Below, in pieces: positions 268 to 8,334 of a stretch of 12,273 bases of DNA. The notes beneath the pieces were generated by a model. That model had not been told where the DNA came from and did no database searches. It saw nothing but the letters and a program-made list of their open reading frames with translations. This DNA comes from Acinetobacter sp. SAAs474 (GTDB lineage Bacteria; Pseudomonadota; Gammaproteobacteria; Pseudomonadales; Moraxellaceae). The translations under genes and the position numbers were made by a program. The first letter of the stretch is position 1; each line of letters begins with the position of its first letter. Location: the NCBI RefSeq assembly GCF_032823475.1, contig NZ_CP127912.1, forward strand, positions 1 to 12,273, read 5' to 3'.

Positions 268-295
268 GTTTCGTATAACGTGTATTATGTTAATT
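268..295 (+). repeat. pdif (XerC/XerD) site 2, C-to-D orientation
   Basis: The arms are GTTTCGTATAA (268-278) and TTATGTTAATT (285-295) around the spacer CGTGTA. All 28 bases are identical to the inverted site at 8307-8334. Near-identity continues on the XerD side: TAGAAAATCTTAA here against TTAGAAAATCTTAA there. This site bounds the left end of the endonuclease III module. Confidence 0.93.
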
Positions 296-448
296 TAGAA
301 AATCTTAACCAGAGCTTGTAAACTATTTGTGTAAGTTCAATTTTTTATAAATGATCTTTTATCTACTAATAAAAATAAAAAGTAATACTGACATTTTTTC
401 TTAAATTTTTATAAAGTTAAAGCACTTTTAATAGTTTAGATTTCTTTC

Positions 449-1105
449 ATGACTACAAATCCAGAAAAAATTTCGAAAATTTACTTAATCTTAAGCCAGA
501 CCTATGAAATTTTCGAGAATACAGATGATCCATGGATGACCAATGGATTATCAAGCAATCCTTTTAAAAGCCTGGTTTCTGTCTGCTTATCAACTATGAC
601 TACGACTAGCAGAGTTGTAAAAGCATGCGTTCCGTTATATGAAAAGGTATCAACATTTGAGGAACTATTAAAACTAGAGGATGAAGAATTAAGAGAAATA
701 ATTAAACCTGTAGCACATTACAATCGTAAAACTAAAAACCTAAAAGTTATGGCTCATCAGATTATTACTAAGTTTAATGGTGAGATACCAAGCAACAAAA
801 AAGACTTACTCTCATTGCAAGGAGTTGGGCCAAAGGTTGCAGATATTATGATGAATTTTGTATTCGACACCCCTAGTATCGCTGTAGATACGCACATTTT
901 AAGACTACTAAATAGGCTAGGTATCGTGAAAACATCTTCGGCTGAAATTGCAGCTGAGACTATAAATACCATCACACCAATTGAATTTAAAAAGCATGCT
1001 CACGAATGGTTAATTCAACATGGCATGAAAGTATGTCATGCAAGAAAACCTAAATGTGAAGAATGTGTCATATGTAATTATTGTTCTTATAAAACCATCG
1101 GATGA
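449..1105 (+). CDS. endonuclease III-like DNA glycosylase/lyase (HhH-GPD, 4Fe-4S)
   Basis: The 218-residue protein has the family's full layout and usual length. The helix-hairpin-helix is LSLQGVGPKVAD (121-132), with K129 at the catalytic lysine position. D147 in AVDTHI (145-150) matches the catalytic aspartate. The C-terminal iron-sulfur loop has C196-X6-C203-X2-C206-X5-C212, the exact endonuclease III spacing. The family excises oxidised pyrimidines from DNA and nicks the abasic site. One oddity is the usual LSAQATD motif, which here reads LSTMTTT (48-54), so the DNA-intercalating Gln is a Met and the Asp a Thr. Substrate preference may therefore differ from the chromosomal Nth. The start at 449 aligns with the family N-terminus although no good ribosome site precedes it. 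It is the only gene of its pdif module. A plasmid copy beside the chromosomal gene could aid DNA repair under stress (inference). Confidence 0.9.
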   Translation: MTTNPEKISKIYLILSQTYEIFENTDDPWMTNGLSSNPFKSLVSVCLSTMTTTSRVVKACVPLYEKVSTFEELLKLEDEELREIIKPVAHYNRKTKNLKVMAHQIITKFNGEIPSNKKDLLSLQGVGPKVADIMMNFVFDTPSIAVDTHILRLLNRLGIVKTSSAEIAAETINTITPIEFKKHAHEWLIQHGMKVCHARKPKCEECVICNYCSYKTIG

Positions 1106-1192
1106 TGTTTTATATCTACTTCATTAATACTAAACTGATTGAATTATTCTATACAGTAGAAATTAGAGAGGAATGACGTATGTAAGTACCTC

Positions 1193-1220
1193 ATTTAACA
1201 TAATGGCGCTTATACGAAAC
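1193..1220 (-). repeat. pdif site 3, D-to-C orientation
   Basis: The XerD-like arm is ATTTAACATAA (1193-1203), the spacer TGGCGC (1204-1209) and the XerC-like arm TTATACGAAAC (1210-1220). It is inverted relative to sites 1 and 2 and closes the endonuclease III module. No other site in the window shares its spacer. Confidence 0.88.
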
Positions 1221-1285
1221 GTTTTATAGAAATACTTTGTTTTTCATACAGTTAAAAATTTTCACCCACCCCAAAAAATAGCAAA

Positions 1286-1317
1286 AAGCCAATCTGGAAA
1301 CATGTTGGCTGTTTTTT
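1286..1317 (+). terminator. possible rho-independent terminator
   Basis: AGCCAA (1287-1292) pairs with TTGGCT (1305-1310) across a 12-nt loop, and a G plus six T follow. The stem is short, so termination is likely but weak. It could end read-through from the endonuclease III gene. Confidence 0.4.
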
Positions 1318-1409
1318 AAACCAATTTGTCACTTTTTGCCCATAAAATCGGTTAAAAAAACGTCTAAAACAGTAATTCCCTAATCAATATAGGCCTTTCA
1401 TCCTCTAAT

Positions 1410-1444
1410 TTGTCCACATTTTCTGCGGATAAATATATGGATAA
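1410..1444. promoter_or_regulatory. cluster of DnaA-box-like nonamers
   Basis: Three sequences lie within 35 bp: TTGTCCACA (1410-1418), TGCGGATAA (1424-1432) and TATGGATAA (1436-1444). Each differs by one base from the DnaA box TTATCCACA or its complement TGTGGATAA. A fourth (TGTGGATAG, 1741-1749) lies over the higB start. They sit far from repB and the iterons, so their role is uncertain. Confidence 0.35.
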
Positions 1445-1529
1445 AATTCACACAATTTTGTACGCCTAAGCGCACAGCAATTTAAGGATTTTACCCATAT
1501 ACACTCTGTAACAAATCTCCTATGATGAA

Positions 1530-1661
1530 CTCATGCAGGAACAGGATGTTCCAGAACACAAAACAACGATAAGACGTTCATACACCAGGAATGTGAAGCT
1601 CAACAGGAGTTAGGCTTAACCAACCAATACGAAAAACCCCGACAGGATGTCGGGGTTTTTT
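1530..1661 (+). ncRNA. possible small RNA ending in a strong terminator
   Basis: The strong terminator at 1632-1661 has no protein gene upstream of it on the + strand, so something noncoding may end there. The stretch contains a perfect hairpin, GGAACA (1538-1543) with TGTTCC (1547-1552). This hairpin and the terminator share the nonamer ACAGGATGT (1541-1549 and 1642-1650 core). Multi-copy small RNAs with two GGA-loop hairpins are known in Acinetobacter, and this layout is reminiscent of them, but I cannot confirm identity. The 5' end is a guess, and TATGAT (1521-1526) is only a candidate -10. Confidence 0.4.
1632..1661 (+). terminator. strong rho-independent terminator
   Basis: A 13-bp perfect stem (1632-1644 with 1648-1660; core CCCCGACA / TGTCGGGG, loop GGA) is followed by T. 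The A-run and T-run on either side let it work on both strands. It isolates higBA from transcription coming from the left. Confidence 0.85.
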
Positions 1662-1704
1662 ATTGCCTATTATTTCTCATTTGCAAAACAAGCATAATGC
1701 TCCT

Positions 1705-1730
1705 AAAATATAGACTATAATCTATATTTT
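1705..1730. promoter_or_regulatory. higBA operator/promoter, perfect palindrome
   Basis: AAAATATAGA (1705-1714) and TCTATATTTT (1721-1730) are perfect 10-bp inverted arms around a 6-bp centre. An exact -10 box, TATAAT, occupies 1716-1721, so a protein bound here would block RNA polymerase. It lies 9 bp before the higB start, as expected for autorepression by the HigA antitoxin. No good -35 is seen, and the leader would be very short. Confidence 0.75.
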
Positions 1731-1739
1731 GGTTGTGGT

Positions 1740-2096
1740 ATGTGGATAGTCATTACGACAGATCTATTTAATGAATGGCTTGAACAGCAAGATGAATCGA
1801 CACAAGAGAAGGTCTTAGCTGCTTTGGTTGTTCTGCAACAACAGGGACCGAGCTTAGGCCGCCCTTTAGTAGATACCGTGTATGACTCTAAATTTACCAA
1901 CATGAAAGAGCTTCGTGTTCAACATCGTGGTAAACCACTCCGGGCTTTTTTTGCATTTGATCCTTTACGTCAGGCTATTGTGCTATGTATCGGAGATAAA
2001 AGTGGTAAAAAGCGTTTTTATACAGAGATGTTAGCAATTGCAGATGAGCAATACGAACTTCATCTCTCAACTTTAGGAGATCAATTAGATGGCTAA
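1740..2096 (+). CDS. higB: HigB-like toxin (phage Gp49-like, RelE superfamily)
   Basis: The 118-residue protein matches the Gp49-like/HigB family over its length. The signature KELRVQHRGKPLRAFFAFDP (57-75 region) is followed by GDKSGKKRFYTEMLAIADEQY (85-105 region), where the basic and tyrosine residues of ribosome-dependent mRNA interferases lie. Known members cleave mRNA on the ribosome and stop growth until bound by the partner antitoxin. Toxin-first gene order is the HigBA hallmark. The stop overlaps the higA start by 8 nt (ATGGCTAA), so the two are translationally coupled. The ribosome site is poor (GGTTGTGG), which may keep toxin output low. The pair probably stabilises the plasmid by killing or arresting cells that lose it. 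Confidence 0.9.
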   Translation: MWIVITTDLFNEWLEQQDESTQEKVLAALVVLQQQGPSLGRPLVDTVYDSKFTNMKELRVQHRGKPLRAFFAFDPLRQAIVLCIGDKSGKKRFYTEMLAIADEQYELHLSTLGDQLDG

Positions 2097-2391
2097 GACC
2101 CTACAAGAATTATTAGCTAGTCGCTCTCCAGAGAGCCAAACTCGTATTCAACAAATGGCTGATGAATTGTTATTGAAAAATCAGCTTTATTTGATTCGTG
2201 AAGAATTAGAGATTTCTCAAAAAGAATTGGCTGAAACCCTTGGTATTAAACAACCTTCTCTTTCAGCAATTGAAAATCGTGGGAATGATCTTAAGATTTC
2301 AACCATGAAAAAGTATGTCGAAGCAATGGGCGGAAAACTGCGTATTGATGTAGAGCTTCCAACAGGAAAGCATATAGGATTCAATGTATAG
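2089..2391 (+). CDS. higA: HigA-like antitoxin (XRE helix-turn-helix)
   Basis: The 100-residue protein has a Cro/C1-type helix-turn-helix at about 41-65 (EISQKELAETLGIKQPSLSA then IENRG). A helical N-terminal segment (1-40) is typical of antitoxins paired with Gp49-like toxins, and the tail is a short beta segment (GGKLRIDVELP). It should neutralise HigB by direct binding and repress the operon at the palindrome 1705-1730. Translation starts inside the end of higB. The operon ends at the bidirectional terminator 2429-2459. Confidence 0.9.
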   Translation: MAKTLQELLASRSPESQTRIQQMADELLLKNQLYLIREELEISQKELAETLGIKQPSLSAIENRGNDLKISTMKKYVEAMGGKLRIDVELPTGKHIGFNV

Positions 2392-2397
2392 CAATCA

Positions 2398-2412
2398 AAA
2401 TGGGTTCTAACA
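2398..2412. repeat. 15-bp direct repeat, copy 1
   Basis: AAATGGGTTCTAACA occurs here just after higA and again at 3409-3423, just before pdif site 4. The two copies bracket hdeA and the transposase remnant, about 1 kb. They may be a scar of an insertion or a duplicated module end. Confidence 0.6.
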
Positions 2413-2428
2413 TCCAAATTTCAGACAT

Positions 2429-2459
2429 AAAAAAGCCCAACATATTGTTGGGCTTTTTT
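2429..2459. terminator. bidirectional terminator between higA and hdeA
   Basis: AAAAAAGCCCAACA (2429-2442) and TGTTGGGCTTTTTT (2446-2459) form a 14-bp perfect stem with a 3-nt loop. The T-run on one strand and A-run on the other serve higA from the left and hdeA from the right. The hdeA stop codon begins 2 bp away. Confidence 0.9.
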
Positions 2460-2460
2460 A

Positions 2461-2769
2461 TTATTTAATTTTGTTCCACTCTTTAGCTAATACTTGTTTA
2501 AAACTTTGCTTTTTATTTTTAGTACATTCCCGAACAACAATAGGTGTAACTGTATCAATACCTTGCATATTGATAACTTGATTTTCTACCCCTTTATTAT
2601 TCATATTTAAAGCAATATTGACTCCAATAGCTGTTGGCTGAAATTTTTGATCAATCATTAAGAAGTCCTCACATGTCCATTTATTGACTGGTTTCTTTGA
2701 AGGAGCAGCATTTGAGAACATTGGTGTTAATGCGATAAAAGATAGGATAGCAATCGATAGCTTTTTCAT
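2461..2769 (-). CDS. hdeA: HdeA-like periplasmic acid-stress chaperone
   Basis: The 102-residue protein closely follows enterobacterial HdeA. Shared stretches include KPVNKWTCEDFL (26-37), FQPTAIGVNIALN (43-55), VINMQGIDTVTPIVV (65-79) and EWNKIK at the end. A signal peptide with a hydrophobic core (SIAILSFIALTPMF) and a likely cut after SNA (19-21) sends it to the periplasm. C33 and C82 match the conserved disulfide pair. HdeA is an acid-activated chaperone that unfolds at low pH and stops periplasmic proteins from aggregating. AAGAGT lies about 10 nt before the ATG as a ribosome site. It is convergent with higA through a shared terminator. It sits next to a decayed transposase, so it may have arrived with that element (inference). 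Confidence 0.9.
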   Translation of the reverse strand: MKKLSIAILSFIALTPMFSNAAPSKKPVNKWTCEDFLMIDQKFQPTAIGVNIALNMNNKGVENQVINMQGIDTVTPIVVRECTKNKKQSFKQVLAKEWNKIK

Positions 2770-2960
2770 TTTAATTAGACTCTTATTTAGTAAATAATAG
2801 AGTATTTATATCGATTCTTGTCTGGTGTAATTCTTTGTTGAATAAATGTTTCTCAATCTTAATCAACCAAAATATTTCAAGTATTATTCTTTCATTCTAA
2901 TTTCTATTAGGAAGCTATTTTTTCTTACCAAATAGTTAAATGGATCTGCATAAAGTCATG

Positions 2961-3341
2961 AATCAAGTCACCAAAGCAATCACGGTTATATCGAGGCTGA
3001 TATGAACGTTTTTGTCATTTGAATCGAGGAATCTAGCGCCGAACCGTTTCTACCGGGATATTCAAGCCAAACATGCTGATGAGCTTATCATGAGCCAAGG
3101 TTGGACCAAAGCCAAGCAAATGTTCAGAAATAATGGAAAGGCATTCTGATTTTAACAAATCGTTATGGCGACGATGACCAGGTTGATCACGGCTGGCATG
3201 TGCTAGACCTGAAACACCATTTTGATTGAGCTTCTGTAACAATTGGGTAATTTGACGAGTTGAAAGATTTAGAATTTCAGCAGAACGGACTTATATAATA
3301 TGTTGATCTCGAACATCTTGTAGAACAGCATCTCGATTCAT
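2961..3341 (-). pseudogene. decayed ISNCY-like transposase fragment
   Basis: Read in one frame from an ATG at 3341, this resembles the N-terminal half of ISNCY/integrase-core transposases. It has a helix-turn-helix stretch (RSAEILNLSTRQITQLLQKL), then a linker (RDQPGHRRHNDLLKS), then EHLLGFGPTLAHDKL and IPVETVRR. Past that it still reads KRSYQPRYNRDCFGDLI-like in the same frame (to about 2961). Three in-frame stops break it, at 3291-3293, 3033-3035 and 3015-3017. The DDE core that should follow is missing, replaced by unrelated sequence. It cannot make an active transposase. The exact family is from memory and should be confirmed. Confidence 0.7.
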
Positions 3342-3408
3342 ATCCAGTCCATGATGTTGATGTGCATCATAGATCAGACATTTTTATTGTTGAGAATACA
3401 AACACTTT

Positions 3409-3423
3409 AAATGGGTTCTAACA
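3409..3423. repeat. 15-bp direct repeat, copy 2
   Basis: Second copy of AAATGGGTTCTAACA (see 2398-2412), ending 5 bp before pdif site 4. Confidence 0.6.
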
Positions 3424-3428
3424 AGGGT

Positions 3429-3456
3429 ATTTCGCATAAGGTGTATTATGTTAATT
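3429..3456 (+). repeat. pdif site 4, C-to-D orientation
   Basis: The XerC-like arm is ATTTCGCATAA (3429-3439), the spacer GGTGTA (3440-3445) and the XerD-like arm TTATGTTAATT (3446-3456). The spacer differs from that of sites 2 and 5 by one base. It forms the left border of the sugar module. Confidence 0.9.
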
Positions 3457-3881
3457 TCAAGTGAAATATGCAATTTTAAACCACTTAAAAAATCAATTTT
3501 TTAACTACATTATCTTAATGCGACAAAACCCATTATTGTATATACAAATTTGAATGTTTTTTATAGAACTGTATTTCGAATAGATTGAGGCTAAAAACCA
3601 AAAGAATCAGAAAAAATATGATATATCTTTTGAAACAATAAACGTCTGTTCTCCTTGATACTGATGTACTTATATGGTTAAAATCTCAAGGGAGAGGTTA
3701 TTAGACTCGCATGAATAAAATTCTGAGTGAAGCTATGTTACAAAATTTTAAAAATAATTAATATAAAAAATAACTTATTGAGATATATCATAAAATCTTG
3801 ATACTCTTAGTCTAATTTGAGGTGTCTTTTTCTATAGTAAAAAATAAATAGACAACAAATAGTAGAAACATAATTTAAATT
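3457..3881. other. AT-rich stretch with one gene remnant
   Basis: No intact gene is seen on either strand. The only recognisable item is the antitoxin remnant at 3645-3761. The last 120 bp before the lactonase stop (3762-3881) is plain AT-rich DNA with no clear terminator hairpin. Confidence 0.5.
3645..3761 (+). pseudogene. remnant of a BrnA-like antitoxin, C-terminal part
   Basis: One frame reads TSVLLDTDVLIWLKSQGRGY, a stop (TAG 3702-3704), then TRMNKILSEAMLQNFKNN and a TAA at 3759-3761. This is the closing motif of BrnA-type antitoxins (D-DVL-WFKSQG-GYQTRMN-LR-YM), with the expected Gln codon (CAG) changed to TAG. Nothing upstream in this frame matches the rest of a BrnA, and no BrnT-like toxin is seen. 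It is most likely a dead fragment of a former toxin-antitoxin pair. Confidence 0.6.
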
Positions 3882-4787
3882 TTACCAAGCTAGTGCTAAA
3901 CTTTTAACACCTTGTAATGATGTTTCTGCCATAAGTAATTTACCAGAATCTGGAAATTGAGCTATATCATTGTGTTGAACTGAAGCAGTCGTTACAAAGA
4001 GTATATTCATATTCTTTCCCCCAAAAATAATTTTAGTTGGATGTTGAGCACTTAGCTTATATTTAAGATGAATATTCTGATTAATATCCATACATAAGAT
4101 AGTACTCTGATTATATTGTGCAGACCAGTAATTATTTTGTGTGTCAAATGTTGCTCCATCAGGAGCATCAATATAAGCTAAGTTTGAATAATTTGCTTGA
4201 TGAGTATACTTATAGTTTGACAATAACTCCTTATTTGAAATAATATTTCCTGTCGATGAATCTAACTTATAGCGATAAATATGTTGATATTTAGAATCAC
4301 TAAAATATAACCATTTCTTATCTGATGAAAATGCTATTCCATTCGTGATGCATAATTTATTTTCAAGAATAATCACTTGCTGATTTTGATCTATACATAA
4401 TAATATTGCTTTATTTTGATTGTCCCTCTCCCAAATACTACCACACCAGAATCGTCCCCACGGATCAATACATCCATCATTAAAACGACTAAAATTTGGA
4501 TCAGTAGGATTAGAAATTATTTTTTTTTCAATTCGTCCATCTGGAGATAATAAGAAAATTCCTGTTCTCATTCCTGCAATAAATCCACCATTTCTTCTTA
4601 ATCCAATACATCCAATATGTTCCTCCACAGGAATACATTGATGTTTATCTAAATAAGGGTCATAGCGGTGAATTTTTGCATCTAATATATCAACAAAATA
4701 AAGACATTGTTCAAAAGATGACCAAACCGGTGACTCACCTAGTTGTGTCAGATTAGGTATACAATCAACAGAATCAAATGTAAGCAT
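3882..4787 (-). CDS. SMP-30/gluconolactonase family sugar lactonase
   Basis: The 301-residue protein has the usual length of the six-bladed propeller lactonases (SMP-30/LRE). The metal and active-site residues are visible in order: E18 in LGESPVW, R101 and N103 in SRFNDG, N149 in TNGIAFS, and D210 in DAPDGAT. GRFWCGS (111-117) is another family motif. There is no signal peptide, so it acts in the cytoplasm. Members hydrolyse aldonolactones (glucono-, xylono-, arabinono-lactone) or act as regucalcin-like enzymes. It is divergent from a sugar-type dehydrogenase, which fits an oxidation-then-ring-opening pathway. The sugar cannot be read from the sequence. The start at 4787 puts E18 at the normal distance from the N-terminus. 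Confidence 0.88.
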   Translation of the reverse strand: MLTFDSVDCIPNLTQLGESPVWSSFEQCLYFVDILDAKIHRYDPYLDKHQCIPVEEHIGCIGLRRNGGFIAGMRTGIFLLSPDGRIEKKIISNPTDPNFSRFNDGCIDPWGRFWCGSIWERDNQNKAILLCIDQNQQVIILENKLCITNGIAFSSDKKWLYFSDSKYQHIYRYKLDSSTGNIISNKELLSNYKYTHQANYSNLAYIDAPDGATFDTQNNYWSAQYNQSTILCMDINQNIHLKYKLSAQHPTKIIFGGKNMNILFVTTASVQHNDIAQFPDSGKLLMAETSLQGVKSLALAW

Positions 4788-4955
4788 ACGATCATTTCCT
4801 CTATCTTATATTATTAAGATTTATTTCAATATAATCATCTTAAGCTTATCTAGATAAATTAATTTGTTAAGTGATGTAATTTTTATGAGAAAATATACTG
4901 TTTTTAGATAAAAAAAAGTATAGTTAAACTAATTAAATTATAGAAATAAATTATT
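4788..4955. promoter_or_regulatory. divergent promoter region of lactonase and dehydrogenase
   Basis: These 168 bp of very AT-rich DNA separate two head-to-head genes and must hold both promoters. TATACT (4894-4899) is a candidate -10 for the dehydrogenase, without a good -35. No regulator gene lies in the module and no clear palindrome was found. Confidence 0.5.
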
Positions 4956-5756
4956 ATGAAAAGTATATATCAACAAGTAGAATATTTATCATTAAAAAAT
5001 AAAGTTATTCTCATTACAGGTGGTGCATCAGGTATTGGTGCTGCATTTGTAGAAGCATTTGTGTGTCAGGATGCAAAAGTTGCTTTTTTAGATATTAATG
5101 AAGATGATGCATTGCTATTACAAAAGAAGTTTAATAAGAAAAAATATAAAAATATTTTTTATCAGTTTTGTGATGTCACAGATATTAACATGCTAAAAAA
5201 TTGTATTAAAAATATAGAAGATAAATGGAGTGGTATAGATATTTTAATTAATAATGCTGCTAGTGATATTCGTCATGATTTTATAGATATTACTCAAGAT
5301 GATTGGGATGAAAGTATTAATTTAAATTTAAGACACTATTTTTTTGCTATACAATCCGTAGTAGATAGTATGGAAAAAAGAGGAGGTGGTAGTATTATAA
5401 ATGTAGGCTCTATTTCCTGGATGCAAGGTATCTCAAACTTAATATGTTATACAACAGCTAAAGCTGCAATACATGGTATGACGAGATCATTAGCTCGTCA
5501 ATTAGGTGAAAAAAATATTCGTGTAAATAATTTAATACCAGGAGCAATAAAAACACCTAAACAAGATAAAATGTGGGAAGAAGATAAAAAAGGATTAAAA
5601 GCTAATAATTCTTTATTTATTAAAAAACAAATGCTTAAATCTAGATTAATTCCTTCAGATTGCGCACGTTTAGCTCTTTTTTTAGCATCAGATGAAAGTT
5701 ATGGATGTACTGCACAAGACTTTATTATTGATGCTGGTTTACTATTTCAAGATTAA
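4956..5756 (+). CDS. short-chain dehydrogenase/reductase, probably sugar dehydrogenase
   Basis: A classical SDR of 266 residues. The cofactor loop is TGGASGIG (21-28). D46 at the end of the second strand (FLDIN) favours NAD over NADP. NNAA is at 99-102 and the structural Asn is N124 (NLRHYF). The catalytic set is S152, Y165 and K169 (YTTAK), followed by the family's IPG motif (194-196). The C-terminal IIDAGL corresponds to the usual V-DGG end. The paired lactonase suggests that the product is a lactone, as with SDR-type xylose, arabinose, galactose or fucose dehydrogenases (inference). No Shine-Dalgarno is obvious before the ATG. The following gene begins 31 bp downstream on the same strand. 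Confidence 0.88.
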   Translation: MKSIYQQVEYLSLKNKVILITGGASGIGAAFVEAFVCQDAKVAFLDINEDDALLLQKKFNKKKYKNIFYQFCDVTDINMLKNCIKNIEDKWSGIDILINNAASDIRHDFIDITQDDWDESINLNLRHYFFAIQSVVDSMEKRGGGSIINVGSISWMQGISNLICYTTAKAAIHGMTRSLARQLGEKNIRVNNLIPGAIKTPKQDKMWEEDKKGLKANNSLFIKKQMLKSRLIPSDCARLALFLASDESYGCTAQDFIIDAGLLFQD

Positions 5757-5787
5757 GTTTTTTTAAATAAACATAGGATTATGCAAA

Positions 5788-6093
5788 ATGAAAACAAAAA
5801 AAATATTTTTAATTATATTCATATTTTTCATTCTAGGTATTTTTATTGGATATTTAATAAGTACTAAATTAATTGGACGCTATAATATAGTAAATGCGAC
5901 TTGTACAACAATAAATGTTGCTGTTGAAAATAAAATGTTAAACCCTAATGAAATTAGAAAACTAGGAATGTTAACTAAAGAATCTTTAGGTGATAGTCAA
6001 TCAAAAAATGCATTTAAAATCAATAATAAAAGAATAAATTCAGCTTCTGAATATTCTAATTGCTCTCAATTTATAGTTGGTATGAATCAATAA
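5788..6093 (+). CDS. small membrane-anchored protein of unknown function
   Basis: This 101-residue protein has one strong N-terminal hydrophobic helix (IFLIIFIFFILGIFIGYLI, about 6-24) after a lysine-rich start, so it is an inner-membrane anchor or an uncleaved signal. The remaining 75 residues are polar, presumably periplasmic, with two cysteines (C39 and C92) that could pair. I recognise no family. AGGA (5775-5778) is a fair ribosome site. Only 13 bp separate it from the DUF421 gene, so the two are probably co-transcribed and may work together. Confidence 0.7.
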   Translation: MKTKKIFLIIFIFFILGIFIGYLISTKLIGRYNIVNATCTTINVAVENKMLNPNEIRKLGMLTKESLGDSQSKNAFKINNKRINSASEYSNCSQFIVGMNQ

Positions 6094-6106
6094 AAGGTAT
6101 TTATTT

Positions 6107-6757
6107 ATGTTTTATACATTCTTATTAATTAAATTAATAATCGGTTTTATTATTGTAATTTTTCATTTAAGTATATCAGGTAAAACTCAGCTTTCACAAT
6201 TAACACCTATAGATTTTGTTGGAAATTTTATATTAGGAGGAATAATAGGAGGAATAATATATAATGATAATATTTCTTTTTTACAATATATTTTAGTTCT
6301 TATTATTGGAGTATTCTTAATTTCATTATTTAACTATTTAACCAGAAAATTTGATATATTACAAAAAATTGCTGTTGGTGATCCTATACCAATTATAGAA
6401 AATAAAAAATTTATTATTTCAAATATTAATAAAAATAAAAATAAAATTGATATATTAAATATTAGTTCATTAATACACATTCAAGGAATTAATTCTTTTA
6501 ATCAAATATATTATGCTCAAATTGAACCAAATGGTCAATTAAGTGTTATTTTAAACCCAAATGAAAAGCCATCAAAAATATTAATAAATAATGGATGTAT
6601 CAAAAGTACATCTTTAAATCAAATTTATAAAGATGAAGATTGGCTAATAAGTAAAATTAAAGATATTAATTTAGATATTAAGGATATCTATTTATTAGAA
6701 TATAGTGAAAACGGAATATTTATTGTTGATCAAGACGGAGAAACATACTTTATCTAA
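6107..6757 (+). CDS. DUF421 (YetF-like) inner-membrane protein
   Basis: The 216-residue protein has three N-terminal membrane helices (about 4-22, 36-52 and 58-78) and a cytoplasmic C-terminal domain. Family signatures are ISGKTQLSQLTPIDFVGNF (23-41), GDPIPIIENKK (91-101) and the YYAQIEPNGQLSVIL stretch (135-149). The length is normal for DUF421. The biochemical role of the family is poorly known; the soluble domain has been linked to membrane and stress functions in other bacteria. It is very rich in Ile, Asn and Lys, like its neighbours. It lies between the small membrane protein and the MscS channel, suggesting an envelope-stress group. Confidence 0.82.
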   Translation: MFYTFLLIKLIIGFIIVIFHLSISGKTQLSQLTPIDFVGNFILGGIIGGIIYNDNISFLQYILVLIIGVFLISLFNYLTRKFDILQKIAVGDPIPIIENKKFIISNINKNKNKIDILNISSLIHIQGINSFNQIYYAQIEPNGQLSVILNPNEKPSKILINNGCIKSTSLNQIYKDEDWLISKIKDINLDIKDIYLLEYSENGIFIVDQDGETYFI

Positions 6758-6808
6758 AATTAATTTATTATATGAAGATATAAATTTTTCATTAAAAAAG
6801 GATTAATA

Positions 6809-7774
6809 ATGTCTGAAGAACAAGAAATGTTAACTAACCAAACATCTCAATTATTACATAATGCTAGTGATAAGACTGTAAGTAAAATTACTGAAAACAT
6901 AAATAAATATAACGATGCTTATGTAGCTATTGACAATATAATTAATGGATTTTGGGAGCGCTTACCATATTTTATTATAGCTTTAACTATATTTATTATT
7001 TTTTATTTAATTTCAAAACTATTTAAGTTTTTTATACGAAAAAGTCTGATTGAGCATTCATATAATAAAAAGAATTTAATTTTAGTTTTGAATAGAGTAG
7101 GAAGCTCTATAATTATTTTCTTCGGTTTTTTAATTGCTATGGTAATTTCTGTTCCTGGATTTACACCAGGACAATTAATAGGGGCATTAGGAATAGGTTC
7201 GGTAGCAATAAGTTTTGCATTTAAAGATATTTTTCAGAATTTGCTTTCAGGTATTCTCATTCTACTTAGTGAACCGTTTAAAATTGGCGATAATATTATT
7301 GTTAATAGTATGGAAGGTACTGTTGAAGATATTCAAATTCGTGCTACCTTTTTACGGTCTCCTGATGGTAGACGTTTAGTTATCCCTAATGCTACCGTAT
7401 ATACTAGCCCTATAACAGTTAATAGCGTACAAAATCGTCGCTGTGAGTTTACTATTGGTGTAGGATATGAAGTCGATCTACAAAAGGCACAGAATATTAT
7501 TCTTAATCTTTTAAATAATGATCCAAATATCCTAAAAAAACCTAATTTTACTGTAGATATTACAACTTTAGAGAACTTTTCAATTAACTTAACTGTACGT
7601 TGGTGGGTTGATACTACTAAAATATCTACAGCAGCATCTACGAGCTATATACAACAATCAGTAGTGAAAGCATTCCATACCAAATCAATTTCAATCCCTT
7701 ATCCTATTCAAGAGATAAAGTTATATGATGCATATCATCAGTTAAATACTAATAATAGCTCATCTGATAAATAG
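6809..7774 (+). CDS. MscS-family small-conductance mechanosensitive channel
   Basis: The 321-residue protein has two outer helices (about 53-75 and 92-114) and the Gly/Ala-rich pore helix GQLIGALGIGSVAISFAF (121-138), continuing as KDIFQNLLSGILILLSEPF (139-157). The pore is followed by the beta-domain motifs KIGDNIIV (158-165) and VIPNATVYTSPITV (191-204), all diagnostic of MscS. The length is close to that of classic MscS. These channels open under membrane tension and release ions and small solutes on osmotic downshock. An N-terminal 50-residue polar extension precedes the first helix. The AAGGA ribosome site stands 7 nt before the ATG. In this cassette it might vent sugar or sugar acid (inference). 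Confidence 0.92.
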   Translation: MSEEQEMLTNQTSQLLHNASDKTVSKITENINKYNDAYVAIDNIINGFWERLPYFIIALTIFIIFYLISKLFKFFIRKSLIEHSYNKKNLILVLNRVGSSIIIFFGFLIAMVISVPGFTPGQLIGALGIGSVAISFAFKDIFQNLLSGILILLSEPFKIGDNIIVNSMEGTVEDIQIRATFLRSPDGRRLVIPNATVYTSPITVNSVQNRRCEFTIGVGYEVDLQKAQNIILNLLNNDPNILKKPNFTVDITTLENFSINLTVRWWVDTTKISTAASTSYIQQSVVKAFHTKSISIPYPIQEIKLYDAYHQLNTNNSSSDK

Positions 7775-7806
7775 ATATTTTGAATAAAATTAATTTAAGG
7801 ATAGAT

Positions 7807-8070
7807 ATGAAAGAAAAACAAAATAATCATACTATTAAAATTTTAGGTTGGTTAGCAACTATAATGACTATTGGTATGTATGTCTCTTATGTCCCACAAA
7901 TTATAAATAACTTGAATGGTATCAAAGGAAGTCCTATTCAACCTTTAGTTGCTGTACTAAGTTGTAGCTTATGGGTACTTTATGGCTTAAAACGTAAAGA
8001 CTACCCTATTTTTGTAGCTAATATTCCTGGGATTATTTTTGGAATTATAGCATTTTTAACTGCTTTATAA
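7807..8070 (+). CDS. SemiSWEET sugar transporter
   Basis: Starting at ATG 7807 the protein has 87 residues, the normal SemiSWEET size, and the start follows a good AAGGA (7797-7801). An upstream TTG at 7780 adds nine residues but has no ribosome site. There are three membrane helices (about 12-35, 46-60 and 67-86), with the PQ motif at P30-Q31 (YVPQI). W56 (LWVLYG) and N72 (ANIPG) match the substrate-binding Trp and Asn of the family. SemiSWEETs dimerise and carry mono- or disaccharides down their gradient. Placed with a sugar dehydrogenase and a lactonase, it is the probable uptake step. It lies about 30 bp after the MscS gene. Confidence 0.87.
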   Translation: MKEKQNNHTIKILGWLATIMTIGMYVSYVPQIINNLNGIKGSPIQPLVAVLSCSLWVLYGLKRKDYPIFVANIPGIIFGIIAFLTAL

Positions 8071-8072
8071 TT

Positions 8073-8288
8073 AATGAGAAATTGAATAGCCACTACTCTT
8101 CTAGACAAATTATAGATAATATAGCTAATGAGTTGAAAGAAAAGGGTTTCAAATCAATCATACTTAGTTGTGCTTCAACTAATAAAGCTTCTCTAAGTTT
8201 CTGGGAGAAAAATGATTTCTTTAAAGCTGAAGACAATGAAGTTTATGATGACATTGAACTAGTAATTATGGAGAAAAACTTAGAATAA
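8073..8288 (+). pseudogene. C-terminal fragment of a GNAT acetyltransferase
   Basis: The frame carries a GNAT end: LKEKGFKSIILSCASTNKAS (about 18-37 from TTG 8082) followed by LSFWEKNDFFKAED. This matches the usual 'N..a..fy.k.GF' strand-helix-strand close. The N-terminal half, including the acetyl-CoA loop (Q/R-x-x-G-x-G), is absent, and the frame runs back into the SemiSWEET gene with no good start. About 70 residues remain, against about 150-170 for a whole enzyme. It ends 18 bp before pdif site 5, so truncation may date from assembly of the module. Confidence 0.65.
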
Positions 8289-8306
8289 TAAATTAAGATT
8301 TTCTAA

Positions 8307-8334
8307 AATTAACATAATACACGTTATACGAAAC
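8307..8334 (-). repeat. pdif site 5, D-to-C orientation
   Basis: The arms are AATTAACATAA (8307-8317) and TTATACGAAAC (8324-8334) around TACACG. On the complementary strand it equals site 2 (268-295) in every base, including the spacer. It closes the sugar module. Confidence 0.93.

Follow-up and report, generated by a model that had tools for sequence, protein, structure and literature searches.

The stretch analysed here (the window, 12,273 bp) is a complete circular plasmid, p11SAAs470 (NZ_CP127897.1), of Acinetobacter sp. SAAs470 from a lake in South Australia; the same plasmid is contig C6 in the strain's genome assembly (G000). Between two inverted plasmid dif (pdif) sites it carries a cassette of six intact reading frames, encoding an SMP-30 lactonase, a short-chain dehydrogenase/reductase (SDR) of the sulfoquinovose dehydrogenase (SQDH) family, a 101-residue membrane protein, a YetF/DUF421 protein, an MscS-type channel and a SemiSWEET-type transporter. 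A reading made earlier from the sequence alone (the sequence-only reading) had described this arrangement, and sites, frames and Pfam matches were found as it described them. The SDR has lost, or never had, the two arginines that serve sulfonate recognition in SQDH, and the features of the cassette are, from left to right:

3429..3456, + strand: left pdif site, one mismatch, spacer GGTGTA, XerD arm facing the module interior (arms and spacer read from the sequence, naming as in PMC13141974)
3531..3636, + strand: 5′ piece of a brnT-type gene, 106 bp, 94% identical to plasmid CP014655.1
3631..3762, + strand: 3′ piece of a brnA-type gene, 132 bp, 80% identical to CP014655.1
3882..4787, − strand: SMP-30/gluconolactonase-type lactonase, 301 residues; Pfam SGL 215.7 bits, above cut-off
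4956..5756, + strand: SDR, SQDH family, 266 residues; Pfam adh_short_C2 179.6 bits; Gln157 and Ile159 for Arg152 and Arg154, and an extra acidic C-terminal residue
5788..6093, + strand: 101-residue protein, hydrophobic in an N-terminal stretch, in which C39 and C92 are conserved; 64% to the strain's copy at C7:97980 (a 135-kb contig)
6107..6757, + strand: YetF/DUF421 protein; YetF_N 100.2 and DUF421 100.3 bits, both above cut-off; 71% to the strain's chromosomal copy at C9:2816531
6809..7774, + strand: MscS-type channel; MS_channel_2nd 73.2 bits (cut-off 20.2); 75% to the strain's chromosomal copy at C9:910776
7807..8070, + strand: SemiSWEET-type transporter, 87 residues; MtN3_slv 40.4 bits (cut-off 23.7); 77% to the strain's chromosomal copy at C9:1998758
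8108..8288, + strand: what is left of the 3′ end of a GNAT acetyltransferase gene; together with the flank up to 8332 (225 bp) 97.8% identical to A. variabilis plasmid NZ_CP083660.1
8307..8334, − strand: right pdif site, three mismatches, spacer CGTGTA

The genes from SDR to SemiSWEET run in one orientation, separated by gaps of 31, 13, 51 and 32 bp, and the lactonase gene is divergent. The cassette is indeed more AT-rich than the backbone, as had been claimed (GC 26.0% compared with 33.0% in the remaining plasmid); GC at third codon positions (GC3) is 17, 11, 11, 8, 17 and 17% in gene order. The active-site residues also proved intact: the SDR has its catalytic tetrad N124-S152-Y165-K169, lactonase residues E18, R101, N103, N149 and D210 are invariant in an alignment of 18 rows, and the SemiSWEET has its PQ motif (YVPQI). 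We take E18, N149 and D210 to be metal ligands, as in human SMP30. The SemiSWEET scored below the cut-offs of both NCBIfam SemiSWEET models listed, and the 101-residue protein matched no Pfam family above cut-off. A promoter scan gave 33 candidates against a shuffle mean of 40.3, so no excess, and a terminator scan gave none (shuffle mean 1.1). PADLOC at 1e-5 returned no match for the five cassette proteins given (of seven frames, the other two being SemiSWEET and the GNAT remnant), and a defence function was set aside.

The closest solved relative of the SDR is SQDH of P. putida SQ1 (PpSQDH; PDB 9gwu, 9gwv and 9gww), which at 55% identity is the best match both in the PDB and by fold; next comes the L-arabinose 1-dehydrogenase of Herbaspirillum huttiense (PDB 7wwx), at 44%. 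According to PMC12133307, PpSQDH uses Asp45 for NAD and the tetrad Asn119-Ser147-Tyr160-Lys164; Asp99, Arg101 and Gln198 contact the C2 and C3 hydroxyls, Arg152 forms a salt bridge to the sulfonate, Arg154 reaches it via water, and the C-terminal Gln260 is a second-shell contact of Arg152. The P. putida SQDH sequence in our set (P0035) has exactly these residue numbers. The equivalents in the window SDR are D46; N124-S152-Y165-K169; D104, R106 and Q203; Q157; I159; and Q265. The tetrad and the NAD-selecting Asp are thus kept, and among the mapped sites the two sulfonate arginines are the only ones that differ, being replaced by Gln157 and Ile159. The SDR had been read as a sugar dehydrogenase. 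That stood, its nearest relatives being sugar 1-dehydrogenases (SQDH, with L-arabinose dehydrogenase close behind), and the family could be narrowed to that of SQDH minus its sulfonate arginines.

In an alignment of 171 rows, the position of Arg152 is held by Arg in 139 and by Gln in four (the window SDR, P0002, P0003 and Wohlfahrtiimonas P0013); the other 28, one of them misread, have something else. The chain of the window SDR does not end at the C-terminal Gln: Gln265 is followed by Asp266. One such residue (Asp or Glu) past the C-terminal position is present in all four Gln proteins and in none of the 139 Arg proteins. Gln at the C-terminal position itself is a weak SQDH feature because only 44 of the 139 Arg152 proteins end in it (Asn in 78, Leu in 16, Ser in one). 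A profile search with the four Gln proteins yielded no fifth among the best 120 of 8000 matches, all 120 of which are in the alignment.

The outgroup of the trees came from plus-strand readings of 19 loci at order level, 10 of which gave open frames; one of these ten (L035) is a wrong-strand reading, which is among the 171 rows of the alignment and the FastTree but was dropped from the IQ-TREE analyses, the tail count and the lactonase tree. IQ-TREE was run on representatives below 85% identity, 74 with all columns and 73 after removal of the motif and tail columns (out_L025 is absent from the reduced-column tree and from the approximately unbiased (AU) tests). With all columns, the four Gln proteins form one clade (100) within successive Arg-containing groups (95, 85, 93 and 94). 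With the reduced columns, three of the four stand together (100/100) and all four lie inside a group of Arg and Gln proteins (100/99), the 14 representatives with another residue at 152 being grouped outside both (100/99). The lactonase, a separate gene, gives the same branching order as the all-column SDR tree: Wohlfahrtiimonas, then P0123, then the window with P0122 (SH-like approximate likelihood ratio test 89, 99 and 84). P0003 (SDR) and P0123 (lactonase) are probably encoded by neighbouring genes, judging from the 13,064-bp longest contig listed for both. Loss of the sulfonate arginines is likely on these trees, and early branching is possible; the case for loss falls short of proof because the reduced-column trees leave the order open.

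The enzyme is unusual for Acinetobacter. In genome samples that overlap and were drawn from larger groups, with the SDR scored on the top 7–14 candidates per genome, it was found in its own genome only: 1/175 Acinetobacter, 1/299 Moraxellaceae (both at E up to 1e-60) and 1/369 Gammaproteobacteria (E up to 1e-70). At the level of the order, 29 of 293 genomes matched, its own included (E up to 1e-55), and no match from another genome exceeded 47% identity. A scan of genome contigs gave three remote SDRs (28–30%), and no relative was encoded in 60 pattern-matched stretches of viral contigs. Among the matches listed from the protein database, the nearest SDRs are 73 and 63% identical, followed by Wohlfahrtiimonas chitiniclastica (56%) and Pseudomonas proteins named sulfoquinovose 1-dehydrogenase (∼55%); no paper joining sulfoquinovose and Wohlfahrtiimonas was found.

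That the genes occur together elsewhere held for the enzyme pair and failed for the six-gene set, which was in no other plasmid record searched. Besides its own, 24 plasmid records were listed for the SDR (the best 24 of 84 matching); 17 of them were also listed for the lactonase, whose gene adjoins that of the SDR in the same orientation. The pair in Rhizobium sp. WSM4643 is accompanied by a dehydratase, an aldolase, an alpha-glucosidase, a TauE exporter and a semialdehyde dehydrogenase, a cluster that resembles that of the sulfo-Entner–Doudoroff (sulfo-ED) pathway as set out in PMC12890257. With such neighbouring pairs in other bacteria, an NAD-dependent aldose 1-dehydrogenase working with a lactonase appears the best reading of the two window enzymes, in line with the sugar oxidation and lactone opening proposed before.

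As to the sugar, a neutral aldose is favoured over sulfoquinovose because the solved L-arabinose dehydrogenase likewise has Gln at the site of the sulfonate arginine. The SDR and 7wwx agree in fold and in one site residue; L-arabinose activity is at most predicted by this likeness. The best NCBIfam match of the SDR, D-xylose 1-dehydrogenase XylB (NF053674), was dropped as an identity: the score of 306 bits is below the curated cut-off of 400, and P. putida SQDH itself reaches 326 on this model, which therefore fails to separate XylB from SQDH.

That the two enzymes have kept sulfoquinovose or a different sulfosugar as their substrate, forming a truncated front end of the sulfo-ED pathway (sulfoquinovose to sulfogluconolactone to sulfogluconate, the latter excreted or passed to neighbours), is improbable in our view. 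The 55% identity of the SDR to SQDH, its best match by PDB and fold, and the homologous pair within the sulfo-ED-like cluster of Rhizobium WSM4643 would fit such a role, and lake water should contain photosynthetic sulfolipid. Both sulfonate-contacting arginines are replaced, however, although Arg152 is kept in 139 of the 171 aligned rows, the Rhizobium row included, and the module has no dehydratase or aldolase frame. The sole PF00920 (ILVD/EDD) protein of the genome is ilvD by NCBIfam models above cut-off; a sulfogluconate dehydratase of this family was found in neither module nor genome. An aldolase for 2-keto-3,6-dideoxy-6-sulfogluconate of family PF01081 is absent from the genome (the citrate-lyase-type aldolase family seen in Rhizobium lay outside this search). 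A single PF13378 protein is probably catB, because the frames on either side of it look like those of a catechol dioxygenase and a LysR regulator. A dehydratase route of the PF00920 and PF13378 families is thus not evident in the strain, and the sugar acid is probably an end product, since ilvD is the only member of the ILVD/EDD family and a PF01081 aldolase is lacking; the sequence-only reading had named this as one option, beside a feed into host pathways.

The same reading had suggested that the cassette came from a donor beyond Acinetobacter. This was rejected for the four membrane-protein genes, each of which is nearest to the strain's own copy; absence from the other sampled Acinetobacter genomes was shown for the SDR alone. 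The strain's counterparts lie at four unlinked places. For MscS, the own copy is 75% identical and the others listed are at most 70% (171/173 Acinetobacter genomes match, E up to 1e-110; own genome included here and in the following counts). For YetF the values are 71% and, for the best other, 54% (5/173 genomes at 1e-70), for the 101-residue protein 64 and 48% (31/171 at 1e-12), and for SemiSWEET 77 and 65% (5/171 at 1e-30). In small trees with the best-hit loci of 11, 4, 11 and 4 other species, the plasmid copy and the own copy pair at 100/97, 100/100, 84/83 and 100/100 (MscS, YetF, 101-residue protein and SemiSWEET). The ratios of nonsynonymous to synonymous substitution (dN/dS, as ratio of NG86 values) are 0.136, 0.145, 0.10 and 0.22 in the same order. 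Because the own copies are closest, the trees pair them and dN/dS is low, the four genes have the look of sisters of host genes that are old, maintained and AT-drifted, and not of imports from beyond the genus; closer copies could exist in an unsampled sister species. The 101-residue protein belongs to a family of ∼100-residue proteins (L013:5981-6286) that share two cysteines and a hydrophobic N-terminus; beyond the 31 of 171 Acinetobacter genomes, a member is encoded on a Pantoea plasmid (64% over 72%).

The window contains five pdif-like sites (211 +, 268 +, 1193 −, 3429 + and 8307 −); 200 shuffles contained none. The two sites bounding the cassette are inverted with their XerD arms inside, as judged from the arm order in the sequence, which makes it a D module in the nomenclature of PMC13141974. 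That paper reports inversion between inverted sites bearing the spacers GGTGTA and CGTGTA, a lone mismatch beside the XerC arm being no bar, and describes fusion modules among dif modules. The module ends are telling. On the left, the brnT and brnA pieces abut, and the brnTA pair is broken because the ∼380 bp that separate them in the module of CP014655.1 are gone; on the right, the 97.8% stretch in the A. variabilis plasmid comprises the last part of a GNAT gene together with its pdif site. The interior thus lies between remnants of two other gene sets. Because these remnants, which like the strain's own copies of the four membrane genes had escaped the sequence-only reading, belong to genes known from other Acinetobacter plasmids, the module has the appearance of a composite dif module of D type that arose by fusion, the kind described in PMC13141974. 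Among 622 and 874 matching plasmid records, only one, its own, covered 80% of the query; this lowers the claim of observed mobility and leaves that of module structure untouched. No account for Acinetobacter of a pdif module with SDR and SMP-30, or of pdif together with a mechanosensitive channel, was found in the literature, where a description under other wording is possible, and strain SAAs470 was not found in the papers searched.

The 28-bp pdif sites at 268-295 and 8307-8334 are identical and inverted, with the nth module, a toxin-antitoxin pair and the cassette between them; inversion of the whole 268-8334 segment is therefore possible. Further pdif-like sequences are present on contigs C1–C5, C7 and C13 and at two places in the 3.3-Mb contig C9, so that the strain seems to carry several pdif plasmids.

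The explanation that best accounts for the locus as a whole, and which we consider as apt to be right as wrong, is that of a composite D-type dif module whose SDR and lactonase act on a neutral aldose and whose membrane-protein genes are sisters of host genes. The SDR would descend from SQDH, or be an early sister of it, its sulfonate arginines having been lost or never present. With NAD+ it would oxidise C1 of an unsulfonated aldose (of the glucose, galactose or L-arabinose type), the lactonase would open the resulting lactone to an aldonic acid, and the acid would leave the cell or enter an unrecognised route, since no dehydratase of the ED type was found. SemiSWEET may admit the sugar, MscS and YetF may contribute to envelope or osmotic tolerance, and XerC/XerD could invert or move the module via the pdif sites. 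A more specific proposal, put forward tentatively and with a good deal of doubt, is that a previously unrecognised branch of the SQDH family gave up a sulfosugar for a different substrate, with loss of both sulfonate arginines, gain of the acidic C-terminal residue at the same pocket and a co-evolving lactonase, and that the dif module also gathered diverged duplicates of four unlinked host-lineage genes into one operon.

Several observations pull the other way. In the FastTree of all rows, rooted on Catenovulum, the four Gln proteins are not a clade and their common ancestor spans 144 rows; with the motif and tail columns removed, branching within or beside the Arg proteins is undecided, as AU tests reject neither Arg as one clade (p 0.288) nor Gln as one clade (p 0.241). 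The lactonase tree was made by a quick method with no bootstrap, its four-row branch reaches 89, and three of its rows (P0123, window and P0122) have an odd letter make-up. D104, R106 and Q203 are common to 7wwx and give no pointer to the sugar, and in IsfD, as reported in PMC12133307, a Gln holds the sulfonate through water, which keeps sulfoquinovose possible as a substrate. The plasmid rows of MscS and the 101-residue protein are long branches whose placement is flagged unsure, dS exceeds 1.3 for MscS, YetF and the 101-residue protein, and YN00 returned no value for any of the four genes. Finally, the membrane genes are tied to the enzymes by adjacency alone.

Two other histories compete with that of a composite module around host-gene sisters. 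The whole block might have been acquired as a unit from a sister lineage, AT-rich and so far unsampled, that already carried the six genes together, which would explain both the low GC3 (8–17%) common to all six and the closeness of the four membrane genes to this strain; we hold it rather unlikely, as the strain's counterparts lie at four unlinked places and the block is in no other plasmid record searched, although both objections are weak. Alternatively, the cargo might have no joint function, the membrane genes having been caught by chance beside an unrelated enzyme pair. The visibly decayed brnTA and GNAT remnants at the module ends and the absence of the gene set from all other plasmid records searched would be expected then; six intact frames, low dN/dS in the four testable genes, short gaps and a single orientation from SDR to SemiSWEET would not, and such a cargo of chance appears quite unlikely.

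Elsewhere on the plasmid, the other pdif-bounded stretch (211-1220) has a gene that resembles endonuclease III and is annotated as nth (at 167.5 bits it is below the TIGR01083 cut-off of 211.7). An hdeA-like acid-stress chaperone gene lies at 2461-2769 (Pfam HdeA 57.5 bits), and directly left of the cassette a frame with a weak HTH_32 match (2940-3420) is probably a decayed insertion-sequence transposase.

The SDR would offer a natural case of substrate switch in a recently solved enzyme family, in which two arginines and one tail residue set a branch apart from the sulfosugar enzymes, so that the basis of sulfonate recognition becomes directly testable. The cassette also suggests that the cargo of dif modules, usually described as resistance and toxin-antitoxin genes, can extend to catabolic enzymes and to second copies of genes from the chromosome, and it shows how pieces of genes from other modules can survive on either side of new cargo.

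With the dif modules of Acinetobacter Rep_3 plasmids, fusion modules included (PMC13141974), the cassette has in common its inverted pdif flanks, the reported spacers, a RepM plasmid and gene remnants seen on similar plasmids; it differs in its cargo, which consists of sugar enzymes and duplicates of membrane genes of the host and was found as a block in no other plasmid record searched. The enzyme genes are divergent here, whereas they are co-oriented in the 17 plasmid records compared. The Herbaspirillum 7wwx enzyme is the more distant solved relative and lacks the tail of Gln followed by an acidic residue. From PpSQDH the window SDR differs in Gln and Ile for Arg152 and Arg154, in the acidic residue after the Gln and in having no sulfo-ED genes nearby, whereas the fold, the NAD-selecting Asp, the catalytic tetrad, the contacts to the C2 and C3 hydroxyls and the Gln at the C-terminal position are shared, as is the adjacency of SQDH relatives to an SMP-30 lactonase.

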